From Flaviflexus massiliensis (lineage in GTDB: Bacteria > Actinomycetota > Actinomycetes > Actinomycetales > Actinomycetaceae): 64,000 nucleotides of DNA. Position 1 is the first letter of the stretch; every line of letters begins with the position of its first letter. Below are positions 3,875 to 54,930 of this stretch, one piece after another. Both the position numbers and the translations under genes were made by a program. The DNA lies in contig NZ_LN831058.1 of the NCBI RefSeq assembly GCF_001375495.1, forward strand, positions 1,570,768-1,634,767, in the 5' to 3' direction. A model generated the notes under the pieces. The model was not told the DNA's origin, made no database searches, and worked only from the letters and a program-made list of their open reading frames with translations.

Positions 3875-4747
3875 ATGACCGAACCCGTCGAGTCGCGCCC
3901 GCTGTTAAACATCAGCCGGGCCGCCGAGATCTTCTGGTACACCTCCCAGACGGAGTGGATGGAACTCGTGGAGCAGGGACAACTCCTGCTCCACAAAACC
4001 TCACCCGACCACGCGGTCGTGCTCTACGTAGCCGAACCGGTCAAGAGCATGGCAGATCTCATTGCCAGATCAAGTGAGCCTGACCTCCTCCGCCTCCTCG
4101 CCCTCGGTGATCCGGGCAAAGTCAATGAGGCACTCGATCGATTGCGCGAGCAGGCGAGAAGCGGAACGCTGAATGGTTTGGCTGGTGCCGGGGAACTTCC
4201 CGGCCCGTCCCGGGCCATGCTCCAAGACGACACCAGTGCCGGACTTGCCGACCGCCACAAGGGTTGGCTGGGCCAATACGTGGGTAACAGGTGGATCTTC
4301 TTCTACGCGGAAGACAAGCTTGAGACTCCGACGCACGATGAGCACATCGAAAAGCTTGGACCCCAGTGGCGGGCAGAGATCGAGCGCGTTATTACCGCCT
4401 CGAACCCAACTACGTCAGCGCTCAGGGATATCGACGAGCTCACGTGGTACGGGTACGTCGATGGGAACCTGCTCGGTGGAGCCATGGGAGTAGAACGCCG
4501 ACGTAACAGCGACGGCACCCTCGGATCGCACTTTGCAGGGCTGGGTACGGACCCTGATATGCAGGGGAGAGGGATCGGCGGTTCGGTCATGGCAGGCACC
4601 ATCAACCGTGAACTCGACGAAACCGACCTCACCACGTTCGGCATGTGGAGCTGGAACGATAAGGCAAGACGCCTCTACAACCGCCTTGGAATCATAGAAG
4701 GGCACGAGTACATCACCTACTCGACCACACCCCTTCAAGAGTCGTAA
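3875..4747 (+). CDS. GNAT-family N-acetyltransferase
   Basis: Probable acetyl-CoA-dependent N-acetyltransferase, substrate unknown. The N-terminal half (about 1-130) is not recognisable. The C-terminal half has GNAT features: an acetyl-CoA-loop-like sequence DMQGRGIGGSVMAG, preceded by a beta-strand region (LGSHFAGLGTDP) and followed by a tail with ARRLYNRLGIIEGHEY, the usual GNAT ending pattern. It starts 2 nt after aspS, so the two are co-transcribed, and ends 20 nt before a strong intrinsic terminator. Confidence 0.75.
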   Translation: MTEPVESRPLLNISRAAEIFWYTSQTEWMELVEQGQLLLHKTSPDHAVVLYVAEPVKSMADLIARSSEPDLLRLLALGDPGKVNEALDRLREQARSGTLNGLAGAGELPGPSRAMLQDDTSAGLADRHKGWLGQYVGNRWIFFYAEDKLETPTHDEHIEKLGPQWRAEIERVITASNPTTSALRDIDELTWYGYVDGNLLGGAMGVERRRNSDGTLGSHFAGLGTDPDMQGRGIGGSVMAGTINRELDETDLTTFGMWSWNDKARRLYNRLGIIEGHEYITYSTTPLQES

Positions 4748-4767
4748 CCGAAGTTCCGCTGAATCTT

Positions 4768-4804
4768 AGTAGCCCCGCTTGGTTACCCTTGCGGGGCTAC
4801 TTTG
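4768..4804 (+). terminator. Intrinsic terminator of aspS-GNAT operon
   Basis: AGTAGCCCCGC and GCGGGGCTACT form an 11-bp GC-rich stem with a 12-nt loop, followed by a short U-run (TTTGT). It lies 20 nt after the GNAT stop codon. Confidence 0.9.
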
Positions 4805-4922
4805 TACCCTCGCAAGGGATTTATAAACGGCGCATCCGCTTCCTAGTCATCAACAGCATCCTCAACTCGCTTCGACATGCCGAGCGAAATTTGTCTCGCT
4901 TAGGAACTGTGCACACGGCTAA

Positions 4923-5046
4923 TTAGTTAAGCAAGCTTCGAACCGTGCAGCGCAATTCTGTTGGTGTCATGTCACTGCCTACGAACTCTTTGACTTGACG
5001 AAATATGCCGACATGCAATGGAAGCCAATACTGGAAAAGATTTGTC
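4923..5046 (-). pseudogene. Relic of an AraC-family HTH C-terminus (candidate)
   Basis: Read on the minus strand, one frame gives GFHCMSAYFVKSK and the adjacent frame continues with KEFVGSDMTPTELR. Joined, these follow the second helix-turn-helix of AraC-type regulators (GF-x-SxYF-x-x-xFK-x-x-x-G-x-TP-x-x-xR). The frame change between the two halves and the lack of an upstream N-terminal domain suggest a decayed fragment. The similarity is short and was judged by eye, so chance resemblance is possible. This otherwise gene-free stretch (4805-5111) holds nothing else recognisable except the probable promoter region of the small gene that follows. Confidence 0.3.
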
Positions 5047-5111
5047 CGAACCCATTTGTACGCTGAGACTGTGTCAGACGACACGTTTACAACAAAATAA
5101 AAGGAGGATGC

Positions 5112-5264
5112 ATGCGAGTAGATGCATATCACTCTATTAACCAGAGTGATCCAGATGTTCATCATGTATTCGACAACTGTCCTACTGGCCAGCAGATCCC
5201 TGCTCGCAACAAGCGACAAGGGAAAAACAATTGGCCTCTTTGTAAGCATTGCGACGATATGTAG
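5112..5264 (+). CDS. Small Cys/His-rich protein, putative zinc-binding, 50 aa
   Basis: Unnamed 50-residue protein. It begins MRVDAYHSINQ and has the spaced pattern HHVFDNC, then TGQQI, RNKR and finally PLCKHC, leaving His17/His18, Cys23, Cys43 and Cys46 as a plausible metal site. The layout (H-x4-C, an I-x-x-x-NK stretch, terminal C-x-x-C) recalls small treble-clef or Ada-type zinc modules, but I cannot assign a family. The case for a real gene is the strong Shine-Dalgarno AAGGAGG (5101-5107), 4 nt before the ATG, and a perfect 15-bp terminator starting 6 nt after the stop. It appears to be its own short transcript. A weak promoter candidate is TTGACT (4990) / TGCAAT (5014). Confidence 0.7.
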   Translation: MRVDAYHSINQSDPDVHHVFDNCPTGQQIPARNKRQGKNNWPLCKHCDDM

Positions 5265-5269
5265 GGCCA

Positions 5270-5316
5270 GAGTGGGACTCCAAGCGTTCAACTTGGAGTC
5301 CCACTCCATATTTTTC
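5270..5316 (+). terminator. Strong intrinsic terminator after the small Cys/His gene
   Basis: GAGTGGGACTCCAAG (5270-5284) and CTTGGAGTCCCACTC (5292-5306) form a perfect 15-bp stem with a 7-nt loop, followed by CATATTTTTC. Orientation of the U-tract fits a plus-strand transcript ending just after the 50-residue gene. Confidence 0.9.
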
Positions 5317-5319
5317 TAA

Positions 5320-5352
5320 GTAGCCAACGACATGCTGTGAGTAGTCAACGAC
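5320..5352. repeat. Two 12-bp direct repeats with 21-bp phasing
   Basis: GTAGCCAACGAC (5320-5331) and GTAGTCAACGAC (5341-5352) match at 11 of 12 positions and start 21 bp apart, two helical turns. This spacing is typical of tandem sites for response regulators, but no partner gene is known. The rest of the 5265-5711 stretch shows only a terminator, these repeats and a palindrome at 5659. Confidence 0.4.
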
Positions 5353-5658
5353 TGACCTTCAATCCCAACCCACAGCGTCCAATGCGAATTCTCGAGTCTC
5401 GGAAATATGCCTGGTTCTTTCAATCAAACCTCGCCAATATTGCAGTTGCTAGTCGGGCGAAGTTCCTATATTTCTGCGGAAATTCTCAGCGCAGCCCTCG
5501 AGTTAGTCGTGGCCTCAGTTTCAACATCGTTTCCTAGTTCCCAAGAGATTGCGACCATGGCCACGACTGTTGAAGATGGATTTGCAGGCAGCGCGACTGA
5601 AGCAGAAAATATTCGGACAAATTAGGACAGTAGTCCCGACACCTGCTTTTAAGTACGG

Positions 5659-5671
5659 ATTACTCTGTAAT
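5659..5671. promoter_or_regulatory. Palindrome upstream of the DUF2249 gene
   Basis: ATTAC-TCT-GTAAT, a perfect inverted repeat about 40 bp ahead of the DUF2249 start and next to an AT-rich stretch that could be a -10 region (TAATAAAT). It could be an operator for redox or nitrite-responsive control, but it does not match the FNR consensus. Confidence 0.25.
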
Positions 5672-5711
5672 AAATAAGCGGAGACAGTTTCACAAACACT
5701 TGGAGGCAAAA

Positions 5712-6002
5712 ATGGCTGAACTCTCACTCACCGATGTGTCGGGACAGGGCGGCGGATGCGGTTGCGGTGAACACGACCACGACGTTCCCGTACTTGACGT
5801 TCGCATCATCCCCCACGCAATCCGTCACGGTGCCGTCATCGGCTCCTTCTCTCAGCTACGTCCGGGAATGACCATGCATCTCATCGCCCCGCACAATCCG
5901 CTTCCCCTCCTTCAGCAGCTCAAGGACATCAATGGCGAAGATGCCATCGAGATCTCCTACGTTTCCGAGGAGCCTTGGACCATCGCTCTCACGCGCAAGT
6001 AG
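5712..6002 (+). CDS. DUF2249 domain protein
   Basis: Small soluble protein of 96 residues. After a Gly/Cys/His-rich head (GGGCGCGEHDHD, a possible metal site) comes a DUF2249 domain (about 28-96) with LDVRIIPHAIRH and RPGMTMHLIAPHNPLPLL. DUF2249 proteins are often encoded near denitrification and heme-copper oxidase genes and may be involved in metal or cofactor handling; the exact role is unknown. The ATG at 5712 is chosen because GGAGG (5702-5706) sits 5 nt ahead; an upstream ATG would overlap that site. A 15-bp hairpin follows the stop, so it may be a separate transcript from the nitrite reductase genes downstream. Confidence 0.85.
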   Translation: MAELSLTDVSGQGGGCGCGEHDHDVPVLDVRIIPHAIRHGAVIGSFSQLRPGMTMHLIAPHNPLPLLQQLKDINGEDAIEISYVSEEPWTIALTRK

Positions 6003-52453: not shown

Positions 52454-53371
52454 GTGACTGAAACACGTTATGACCCCGGCAAGCGAACGTTTCGACTGCT
52501 TGCCAATCTCGTGGACCGTCCTCGCACGAGGAGTGAGCTGTACGAGCTGGGCTACGACCAGGCAGGCACGGACCGAGCAAAGGCGCTGTCCCGCGATATC
52601 GACAGGCTCGAGCAACTCGGTTATCCCGTGACGATCGACAGTGACGATACGGATCCTGTCTACCGATTGAAAAGAGACGGGCTCGTCGGAATTGACCTGA
52701 ACTCGGCCGACCTGACACTCCTGCGTCTCGCTGCCCAGTCCATGACCGGCAAGGACGAACTGCACCAGATCGCGCGCCGCACGGTCCGCAAGCTCCTTGG
52801 TGGTGCGAGTGTGACGGATGATCAGGCAACCGTACGCATCACCCTCCCCGAACACGGATTCTTGTTCACCATCATTGAGGCCATGGCGCAGCGGGCTCCC
52901 ATTCGCATCGAGTACGAGAATCCCCGCCACCCCGAACGCCGCTTCTATACGGTCGAGGTCACCGGCGTGTGGGAAACACTCGGAGCCTTCTATTGCCGCG
53001 GCACCAGGCTCGCTGTTGGTGCGGTCGTGGGGGATATGCAGGAGACGAAGCCGGAAGAACGAAACTTCCGCCTGTCTCGCATGAAGAGCGTTGAGATACT
53101 CGAGCCGACCGGTTACGAACCGAAGGGCACCCTCAACCGCTACTTTGATCCGATCGATGCCTCGGTTTTCCTCGCAGAAGGTGCGGGTGACCACCTGCGT
53201 GACGAAGCGCAGTACGTGGGCACGAGTGAAGGCTGGGACGAGTACCGGTTTGAGAACGTGAACTGGCCGCGACTCATGGAACAGCTGGGTGTCATCGGCA
53301 CGGGTGCACGCACCTCCCATCCCGACTATCGGGAGCGCCTCGAACACCTTGTCGGATTGGGGGAGTCATGA
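52454..53371 (+). CDS. pafB: WYL-domain transcriptional regulator PafB
   Basis: Half of the PafBC activator that controls the LexA-independent DNA-damage response in mycobacteria. The 305-residue protein has an N-terminal winged-helix region (KRTFRLLANLVDRPRTRSEL) and a WYL domain (about 135-230; RAPIRIEYENPRHPERRFYT, GAFYCRGTRLA). GTG start. It overlaps pafC by 4 nt. No pafA, pup or prcBA genes lie in the window. Confidence 0.88.
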   Translation: MTETRYDPGKRTFRLLANLVDRPRTRSELYELGYDQAGTDRAKALSRDIDRLEQLGYPVTIDSDDTDPVYRLKRDGLVGIDLNSADLTLLRLAAQSMTGKDELHQIARRTVRKLLGGASVTDDQATVRITLPEHGFLFTIIEAMAQRAPIRIEYENPRHPERRFYTVEVTGVWETLGAFYCRGTRLAVGAVVGDMQETKPEERNFRLSRMKSVEILEPTGYEPKGTLNRYFDPIDASVFLAEGAGDHLRDEAQYVGTSEGWDEYRFENVNWPRLMEQLGVIGTGARTSHPDYRERLEHLVGLGES

Positions 53372-54342
53372 GTAAACCCGATGTTGTGCTCCTGACCGCG
53401 ATCACAACCTATATCACCAACGCAAAACAAACATCCATCGGGGAGATTGCCGACGTTTTTGACCTCAAACTTGAAAATGCGATCGACGCGATCAAGACGA
53501 TCCTCTTTACCGAGGTCGAAGACCGGGTCGGACGCTACTATCTGGATTTCCACGTAGATGCTCAGGAAACTGAGGATGGCACGGACGTCATCTATTCCGA
53601 GGATGACGAGATCACCTACCAGCCCACCAAGTACGACGACCCGCACGTCTATCTGACCGTTGGTGAGGCCGCCGTATCGATCGAGATGCTCGACCAGCTC
53701 CTCAAGCTAGTTGCTCCCGACTCACCGTCGGCCGAGTCGCTCCTGTCCGTGCGCGGTAAGCTCCACGATGCGACCGGCCAGATCATCGGTGCAGAGCCAC
53801 CCACATCCCGCGGGTCAAAGGATGTGCTCACGACCGTCTGGGACGCGTTACGCCACTCGAAAGAACTGATTTTCCAGTACCACAGTCCCGAAGAGTACGG
53901 CGAGAAAGTTACCGAACGGACCGTCATTCCCTGCGCCGTCGTATCCGAATACGAGGGCTACCTGGCAGCACTCCAAGACAAGAAGGACCTGAGGTGGTTC
54001 CGTTTGGATCGAATGTCGCACGCACGCACGGGTAAGACCTTCACCACGACGGATGCGAACCGTGCGCGCAGGACGCTGCGCAGGCAGCCCGACACGCACC
54101 CCACCGGCGGTGCGACTGTGACGTTCACAACGAAACCGTCAGCCGTGTGGTTCGCGGAATCCACGCCCGGTGCGACGATGGTGGCAGGCGATAACAGCAT
54201 CCGGATCACGGTGCAGGCGATCTCCACGACCTGGGTGCGCAACTGCGCCCTCAAGATCGGCACCGACCTTCTCGACATTGAGCCGGCCGACATGAAGGCC
54301 GCGGTTGTCGAGCAGGCCAGGCGGATTCTGGAGGTCCAATGA
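53368..54342 (+). CDS. pafC: WYL-domain transcriptional regulator PafC
   Basis: Partner of PafB. The 324 residues start with a helix-turn-helix region (VVLLTAITTYITNAKQTSIG) and continue with a WYL domain (KELIFQYHSPEEYGEKVTER, YEGYLAALQDKKDLRWFRLD) and a C-terminal WCX-like part. ATG overlaps the pafB stop. The two proteins likely form the heteromer described for mycobacteria; a small membrane protein gene and tatA follow. Confidence 0.87.
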   Translation: MSKPDVVLLTAITTYITNAKQTSIGEIADVFDLKLENAIDAIKTILFTEVEDRVGRYYLDFHVDAQETEDGTDVIYSEDDEITYQPTKYDDPHVYLTVGEAAVSIEMLDQLLKLVAPDSPSAESLLSVRGKLHDATGQIIGAEPPTSRGSKDVLTTVWDALRHSKELIFQYHSPEEYGEKVTERTVIPCAVVSEYEGYLAALQDKKDLRWFRLDRMSHARTGKTFTTTDANRARRTLRRQPDTHPTGGATVTFTTKPSAVWFAESTPGATMVAGDNSIRITVQAISTTWVRNCALKIGTDLLDIEPADMKAAVVEQARRILEVQ

Positions 54343-54669: not shown

Positions 54670-54930
54670 ATGAATCTCAGCGGATGGGAAATCATCATCA
54701 TCCTCGTCGTCCTCATTCTCGTTTTTGGGGCCGCGAAGCTTCCCACGATCGCCTCCTCGGTTGGTAAGTCGATGAAGGTGTTCAAGAAGGAAGTGTCCGA
54801 GCTCCGCGATGACACGAACGTCAATGGAGGTAAGACTCAGATCACGAACCCCGCTGACACCCCGATCCCGCCCGCCAGCTACGACACCACGGCACCGCGT
54901 GATCAGGGACAAGACCGCACCCAGCAGTGA
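54670..54930 (+). CDS. tatA: Sec-independent protein translocase TatA
   Basis: Forms the pore of the twin-arginine translocase that exports folded proteins. The 86 residues have the N-terminal membrane helix with WEIIIILVVLILVFGAAKLP, the FG-x-x-KLP hinge, the amphipathic SVGKSMKVFKKEVSEL helix, and a polar tail. GGAG precedes the ATG. tatC overlaps by 4 nt. Confidence 0.96.
   Translation: MNLSGWEIIIILVVLILVFGAAKLPTIASSVGKSMKVFKKEVSELRDDTNVNGGKTQITNPADTPIPPASYDTTAPRDQGQDRTQQ

Follow-up and report, generated by a model that had tools for sequence, protein, structure and literature searches.

A 50-residue Cys/His protein gene of Flaviflexus massiliensis and its relatives: patchy horizontal spread, a candidate PafBC-type promoter, and a possible Ada-like zinc fold

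Introduction

PafBC promoters are LexA-independent DNA damage promoters, and the known targets of the PafBC response are mostly core repair genes. In Ada, whose N-terminal domain is a small zinc fold linked to DNA damage, the Cys that acts as the first ligand is the methyl acceptor. Short Ada-like modules that match PF02805 occur on thermonuclease-like and methyltransferase-like proteins and share the layout H/C-x3-C ... I-x3-N ... G-Y-x-x-C-x2-C. The PafBC (RecA-independent) promoter motif is given as tTGTCRgtg-8 nt-TannnT (PMC5656591) and as TGTCGG-10N-TA-3N-T (PMC8151990).

Here, we compare with these systems a short gene in a 64-kb stretch of Flaviflexus massiliensis DNA, the whole of which is referred to below as the window. 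A preliminary description, made from the letters alone, had drawn attention to this gene as that of a possible metal-binding protein in a compact transcription unit. Loci carry L numbers and genomes G numbers.

Results

The gene and its nearest signals are as follows.

5112 to 5264, + strand: gene for a 50-residue Cys/His protein with proposed ligands H18, C23, C44, and C47, supported by homologues, selection, and ligand conservation
5101 to 5107, + strand: ribosome-binding site AAGGAGG, read directly, 4 nt before the ATG at 5112
5270 to 5306, + strand: intrinsic terminator hairpin with a perfect 15-bp stem, close to the stop of the ORF

Between the ATG at 5112 and the stop codon at 5262 to 5264 lie 50 codons, translated as MRVDAYHSINQSDPDVHHVFDNCPTGQQIPARNKRQGKNNWPLCKHCDDM. 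Rereading thus returned the ORF of the preliminary description, together with its AAGGAGG and its HHVFDNC and PLCKHC elements. The terminator reported there also stands as a perfect 15-bp stem (arms 5270 to 5284 and 5292 to 5306, loop of 7, then the T-rich tail CATATTTTTC), but it begins 5 nt after the stop and not 6. GGAG-type sites were seen by eye 5' of many homologues. Stems of at least 10 pairs no farther than 25 nt from the stop were found in 14 of 28 loci of the subgroup to which the window belongs, in 4 of 13 of a Cellulomonas-type clade, and in 5 of 11 far members, against means of 0.53, 0.37, and 0.15 (maxima 4, 2, and 3) in 60 shuffles; by this sign, therefore, about half of the subgroup is a one-gene unit. 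A sigma-70 scan over 4700 to 5800 returned no promoter.

The ribosome site, the terminator, purifying selection, and the existence of homologues confirm that the ORF is a real gene. Differences between the window copy and L062 number 4, 10, and 26 at codon positions 1, 2, and 3 (pN/pS 0.15), and three homologue comparisons with the window copy gave pN/pS values of 0.15 to 0.24 at pS values of 0.83 to 0.90, so that synonymous sites are near saturation in these comparisons. The less diverged pair L015 and L062 gave 0.19; two other pairs gave weaker values of 0.54 and 0.63. The homologues keep the reading frame, and changes fall mostly at third codon positions. The ORF is short and lies within a low-GC intergenic region, as a chance ORF might, but homologues, a pN/pS of 0.15 to 0.24, fixed ligands, and a terminator leave that explanation a negligible probability.

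Conservation was assessed in an alignment of 54 rows, drawn from 60 gathered loci after near-duplicates or truncated copies (L010, L014, L042, L083, L114, and L115) had been left out. H18, C23, and C47 are present in 54/54 rows and C44 in 53/54; the other conserved columns are S8 and G26 (52 each), G37 (51), and H7 (47). Fourteen further matches lie outside this alignment (L029, L031, L032, L034, L051 to L053, and L055 to L061). By eye, the four ligands are all present in six of them (L034, L051, L052, L053, L055, and L060), and three decayed or truncated ones have lost some (L029 has a stop before C44, L031 is without C23 and C44, and L056 is without C47). L032 and L057 to L059 were set aside by eye as weak or false matches, the one in G746 (L057) having the look of a GMC oxidoreductase. 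Conserved homologues with the same four ligands, which the preliminary description had named as support for its proposal, thus extend down to 26% identity. The conserved Cys/His pattern is very likely a metal site, and we infer from it that the protein binds zinc or another metal.

As regards architecture, L049, L052 to L055, and L060 carry an N-terminal extension of about 25 to 35 residues (MATDKDKG-like) ahead of the module. In L034, the zinc module is located at the C terminus of a membrane protein with, by eye, the look of a P-type ATPase, apparently as a fusion.

The small-protein family is uncatalogued in the libraries searched. Pfam gave no match for the window protein or for five divergent members and a single unrelated match at E 0.3 for the sets of 7 and 26 members; NCBIfam gave nothing meaningful for the 26 members, PHROGs gave matches at E 0.03 or worse only, and the PDB sequences showed no significant match to the 7-member profile. 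This agrees with the preliminary description, which could name no family; the defence linkage raised there found no backing, since PADLOC assigned 0 families to the 26 members. The candidate phrog_6800 (E 0.032) was rejected; it was detected in 0 of 19 genomes (the window's own included) and 0 of 14 controls, counts that do not in themselves show its absence. A literature search turned up no paper that names the protein family.

One of five tested congeners, G005, has a convincing copy (72 to 73% identity), which is located at a different locus and aligns with the window over the gene itself only; weak matches in G001, G030, and G055 (E 0.026 to 0.058) were excluded from use. The closest protein found (80% identity) belongs to another family, f8, in genome G269. 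Seventeen of 396 genomes match in the order sample (E 1e-3) and 17 of 396 in the phylum sample, counts that include the window's own genome and some decayed, truncated, or false matches. Within G269's own family, matches at 1e-6 were found in 26 of 221 genomes, 19 of them from one genus. With the window protein as the query, 4 of 72,556 plasmid records match, and with a divergent member 15 records match at E up to 1; the hosts are Dietzia, Arthrobacter, Curtobacterium, Rhodococcus, Mesorhizobium, and Bradyrhizobium, the seven Bradyrhizobium matches being at E 0.2 only. At the 15 plasmid places, the gene table, itself incomplete, lists no gene in 7, a hypothetical protein in 7, and another gene in 1, so that expression studies can miss the gene.

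None of 50,697 phage records matched any of three protein queries, and the protein is therefore not one that those phages commonly encode. IMG/VR yielded four loci with one query and four with a rhizobial member, L085 being the same place as L036. Seven of ten neighbouring proteins in the viral loci L037, L035, and L082 match a PHROG; among these, L037 has minor tail and replication initiation proteins nearby, L035 has an RNase H and an exonuclease, and L082 has a member of the PAPS-reductase family. Judged from these sequences, the gene moves horizontally and is spread patchily over actinobacteria, rhizobial plasmids, and viral contigs, and the earlier suggestion of a mobile gene fits the plasmids, the viral contigs, and the differing loci within one genus.

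The setting of the window copy likewise fits the accessory gap that had been proposed. GC content is 44 to 50% across most of 4800 to 5700 versus roughly 53 to 65% on both sides, and the congener G001 has the same two flanking genes, but other DNA of about 1.3 kb separates them, and a clean empty site is thus lacking there. The neighbours are a GNAT-like gene at 3875 to 4747 and a small gene from 5712, followed by an NnrS-like gene; all three were named by eye, with no name assigned to any by NCBIfam. Tandem repeats, which had also been described alongside the ORF, were not detected in 4700 to 5800. An 11-bp inverted repeat (5040 to 5050 and 5612 to 5622) brackets the gene and was considered as the sign of a MITE-like element, a candidate that was dropped; by our own estimate, 1.1 kb should contain about 0.1 to 0.2 such pairs.

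When the neighbouring ORFs of 39 loci were compared all against all, no partner proved common to most of them. The most frequent neighbour, a convergent gene, occurs in 5 of 39 and was not found in the window. That the protein is a toxin or antitoxin forming a module with its neighbours, as the ImmA/IrrE-like and PIN-like genes (by eye) adjoining the G005 copy might suggest, is in our estimation very improbable: these neighbour counts argue against it, as do the gene's own terminator and candidate promoter. L038, L075, L082, L083, and L084 encode related proteins on the opposite strand just downstream, with ESCxGGxGH present in the L038 and L082 copies; the L082 copy has no PHROG match.

A recurrent TGTC-G-N10-TAnnnT was first noticed when the upstream regions of the homologues were printed. 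In the window, it corresponds to the following features.

5042 to 5064, + strand: PafBC-type promoter site TTGTCCGAA-CCCATTTG-TACGCT at -70, scoring 8.0/10 against the consensus tTGTCRgtg-N8-TAnnnT
5059 to 5064, + strand: proposed -10 element TACGCT (TAnnnT), part of the PafBC-type motif

The core of the motif is kept in this site, which has mismatches at three positions, namely, R, where it has C, and the lower-case t and g that follow. The window holds 64 sites with at most three mismatches to the full consensus versus 49 by chance, so that its own site is unremarkable taken alone. It is the sole TGTCNG-N10-TANNNT on either strand of the 64 kb (0.66 expected), a pattern loosened at R to fit. 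The exact PafBC consensus has no match in the genome.

Across the family, the PMC5656591 consensus was scored on 52 of the 60 loci (L010, L014, L042, L083, L114, L115, L122, and L124 were dropped as near-duplicates or truncated), with a cutoff of at least 8/10 within -130 to -8 and 300 dinucleotide shuffles as the control. The motif is present in 10 of 28 nonredundant members of the subgroup that includes the window, against a shuffle mean of 0.22 and a maximum of 3, while 18 have no site at this score; the motif had been noticed in these sequences before the test, the division into three groups by protein type also came later than this first sighting, and some of the ten upstream regions are related to each other. 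Random windows of the same loci reach the score in 0.71% of cases, and only the 8-nt spacer gives enrichment, other spacers from 3 to 15 yielding 0 to 2 of 28. The best site, 10.0, is that of L015, which is the G005 copy; L062 scores 9.5, L067 and L104 score 9.0, L069, L011, and L012 score 8.5, and L071, L036, and the window score 8.0. The site is located at -66 to -79 in nine of these ten and at -89 in L036. The motif was found in 0 of 13 members of the Cellulomonas-type clade and in 1 of 11 far members, a plasmid-borne Mesorhizobium copy from outside the actinobacteria, so that 11 of 52 have it overall. PafBC damage control of part of the subgroup is likely on this pattern; for the window's own copy, we are less sure. 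Such control would be a lead beyond the reading given in the preliminary description.

In most of the loci L116 to L127, which belong to the Cellulomonas-type clade, another conserved block was seen by eye upstream of the gene. It resembles GGACCGAGGTCCCTGGTCC and precedes TAgCCT-type hexamers by about 17 nt, which suggests another regulator for part of that clade. The distant member L077 has a perfect SOS-box-like site, CGAAC-N4-GTTCG, at -36, and other LexA-box-like sites, for which no control was run, occur with one mismatch in L084 and with two in five others.

A competing explanation is that the protein is an accessory zinc protein of phages or plasmids with another job, such as taking over the host or interfering with one of its enzymes, and that the damage promoter is one of several host promoters picked up. 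Viral contigs with phage genes nearby (L037 and L035), plasmid copies in both actinobacteria and rhizobia, the 41 of 52 nonredundant members without the PafBC motif at a score of at least 8, and the different upstream block in part of the Cellulomonas-type clade all favor it. It is, however, at odds with the one damage-type promoter common to ten subgroup members, nine of them at near-equal distance, and with the empty phage record search; we consider it rather unlikely.

A candidate regulator pair is encoded in the same window.

52454 to 53371, + strand: pafB-like gene (WYL domain, Pfam match), proposed regulator, adjoining the pafC-like gene
53368 to 54342, + strand: pafC-like gene (WYL domain, Pfam match), proposed regulator, matching PDB chains 7p5x_AY and 9fnd_X at E 2.6e-07

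We take 7p5x_AY and 9fnd_X to be PafBC complexes. The pafB-like gene has no PDB sequence match, and neither gene has an NCBIfam match. The genome contains only these two WYL-domain matches, in adjacent genes (52454 to 54342) followed by tatC at 54927, an arrangement that would supply the pafB and pafC that a PafBC regulon calls for. Upstream of recA in the same genome, an SOS-like box and TGTCTA-N10-TAGCGT were seen by eye.

As for structure, AlphaFold2, run on an input of eight sequences, gave a best model with pLDDT 85 and pTM 0.59; the other four models had pLDDT values of 48 to 70. Foldseek against the PDB gave a best E of 4, a second look found nothing at Z 2, and no match in the PDB and viral-model libraries reached E 0.001. 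The best viral model is unnamed (E 0.1, probability 0.94), the third, from Haloferax tailed virus 1, is annotated as an Ada-like Zn-binding protein (E 0.66, probability 0.75, TM 0.65, rmsd 2.2), and the seventh, at E 3.8 and probability 0.15, is annotated as a "metal binding domain of Ada." With hhalign, the protein scored 22.7 to 23.6 (probability about 50%) against 20 of 22 short PF02805-matching modules, L157 and the truncated L178 being excluded, whereas 40 shuffles that kept the three Cys columns reached at most 15.6 and the reversed sequence reached 13.7. Against 26 classical Ada domains, it scored 13.1 to 13.6, with a poor alignment. PF02805 (Ada_Zn_binding) did not exceed the Pfam cutoff for the window protein, the 7- and 26-member sets, or the five divergent members, and it has no match at 1e-5 in the window genome. 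Nor does the protein have the classical four-Cys ligand set, the first position being H18 throughout; His at the first ligand is also found in some of the short PF02805-matching modules. These modules are located at the C terminus of a methyltransferase-like protein in L157 and of a thermonuclease-like protein in L158 (names by eye). The predicted fold and the profile scores give a hint of a minimal Ada-like zinc module (H-x4-C-x20-C-x2-C) whose first ligand is His.

A stand-alone Ada-like sensor of alkyl damage, taking methyl groups onto its zinc site, would be in keeping with the Ada-like fold matches and the damage-type promoter. We nevertheless give this explanation little credence, given that the first ligand in all 54 rows is His and not Ada's methyl-acceptor Cys and that the alignment with classical Ada domains is poor.

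Discussion

We favor, at a probability of roughly 60%, a mobile, damage-inducible one-gene cassette whose product, a small zinc protein, would have nucleic acid or a repair partner as its target. The cassette would consist of a PafBC-type promoter, a ribosome site, a 50-codon gene, and a hairpin terminator and would be spread horizontally. What was read from the DNA, namely, the gene and its selection, the conserved ligands, the motif enrichment in the subgroup, the pafBC-like pair, and the patchy distribution, forms the groundwork of this proposal, and the sites upstream of recA and of L077 also speak for it. Weighing against it are the subgroup members that have no such site, the off-consensus site of the window, the sigma-70 scan, the poor alignment with classical Ada domains, the low Foldseek significance, and the decayed copies. 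DNA damage would activate the PafBC activator, which would switch on the gene; the product is predicted to take the fold of a minimal Ada-like zinc module in which the site is His-Cys-Cys-Cys. It might then bind damaged DNA or a partner in repair or replication, binding to nucleic acid or a repair partner being our best guess, and so could help either the host or the mobile element to withstand genotoxic stress. About a third of the closer relatives lie behind a damage-type switch, so the protein may belong to an accessory DNA damage response.

An uncatalogued small-protein family thus has a named candidate regulator. If the gene is PafBC induced, it would be an accessory component that the LexA-independent damage response has gained by horizontal transfer, and it could reveal what minimal Ada-like zinc modules do. 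More tentatively, and at less than even odds, these proteins may form a new class, "mini-Ada" zinc proteins that are mobile and inducible by damage, whose independent one-gene cassettes join the PafBC response of any actinobacterium they enter and which recognise lesions or stalled DNA without methyl-acceptor chemistry.

Compared with the PafBC regulon of mycobacteria, a RecA-independent damage response, the present gene differs in being accessory and patchy, in coming from the sample of another actinobacterial order, and in having an off-consensus site in the window; the likeness lies in the motif and spacing of the candidate promoter (PMC5656591 and PMC8151990) and in the pafBC-like pair of the genome. 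With the N-terminal domain of Ada, the protein would share a small zinc fold tied to DNA damage, but His replaces the first Cys and the profile score is only 13. From the short Ada-like modules, it differs in being a stand-alone protein of about 50 residues, in having H-x4-C instead of H/C-x3-C, and in being without a 7-residue stretch and without a Pfam match, and it resembles them in its general layout, in a profile score above all 40 controls, and in its Ada-like fold matches.
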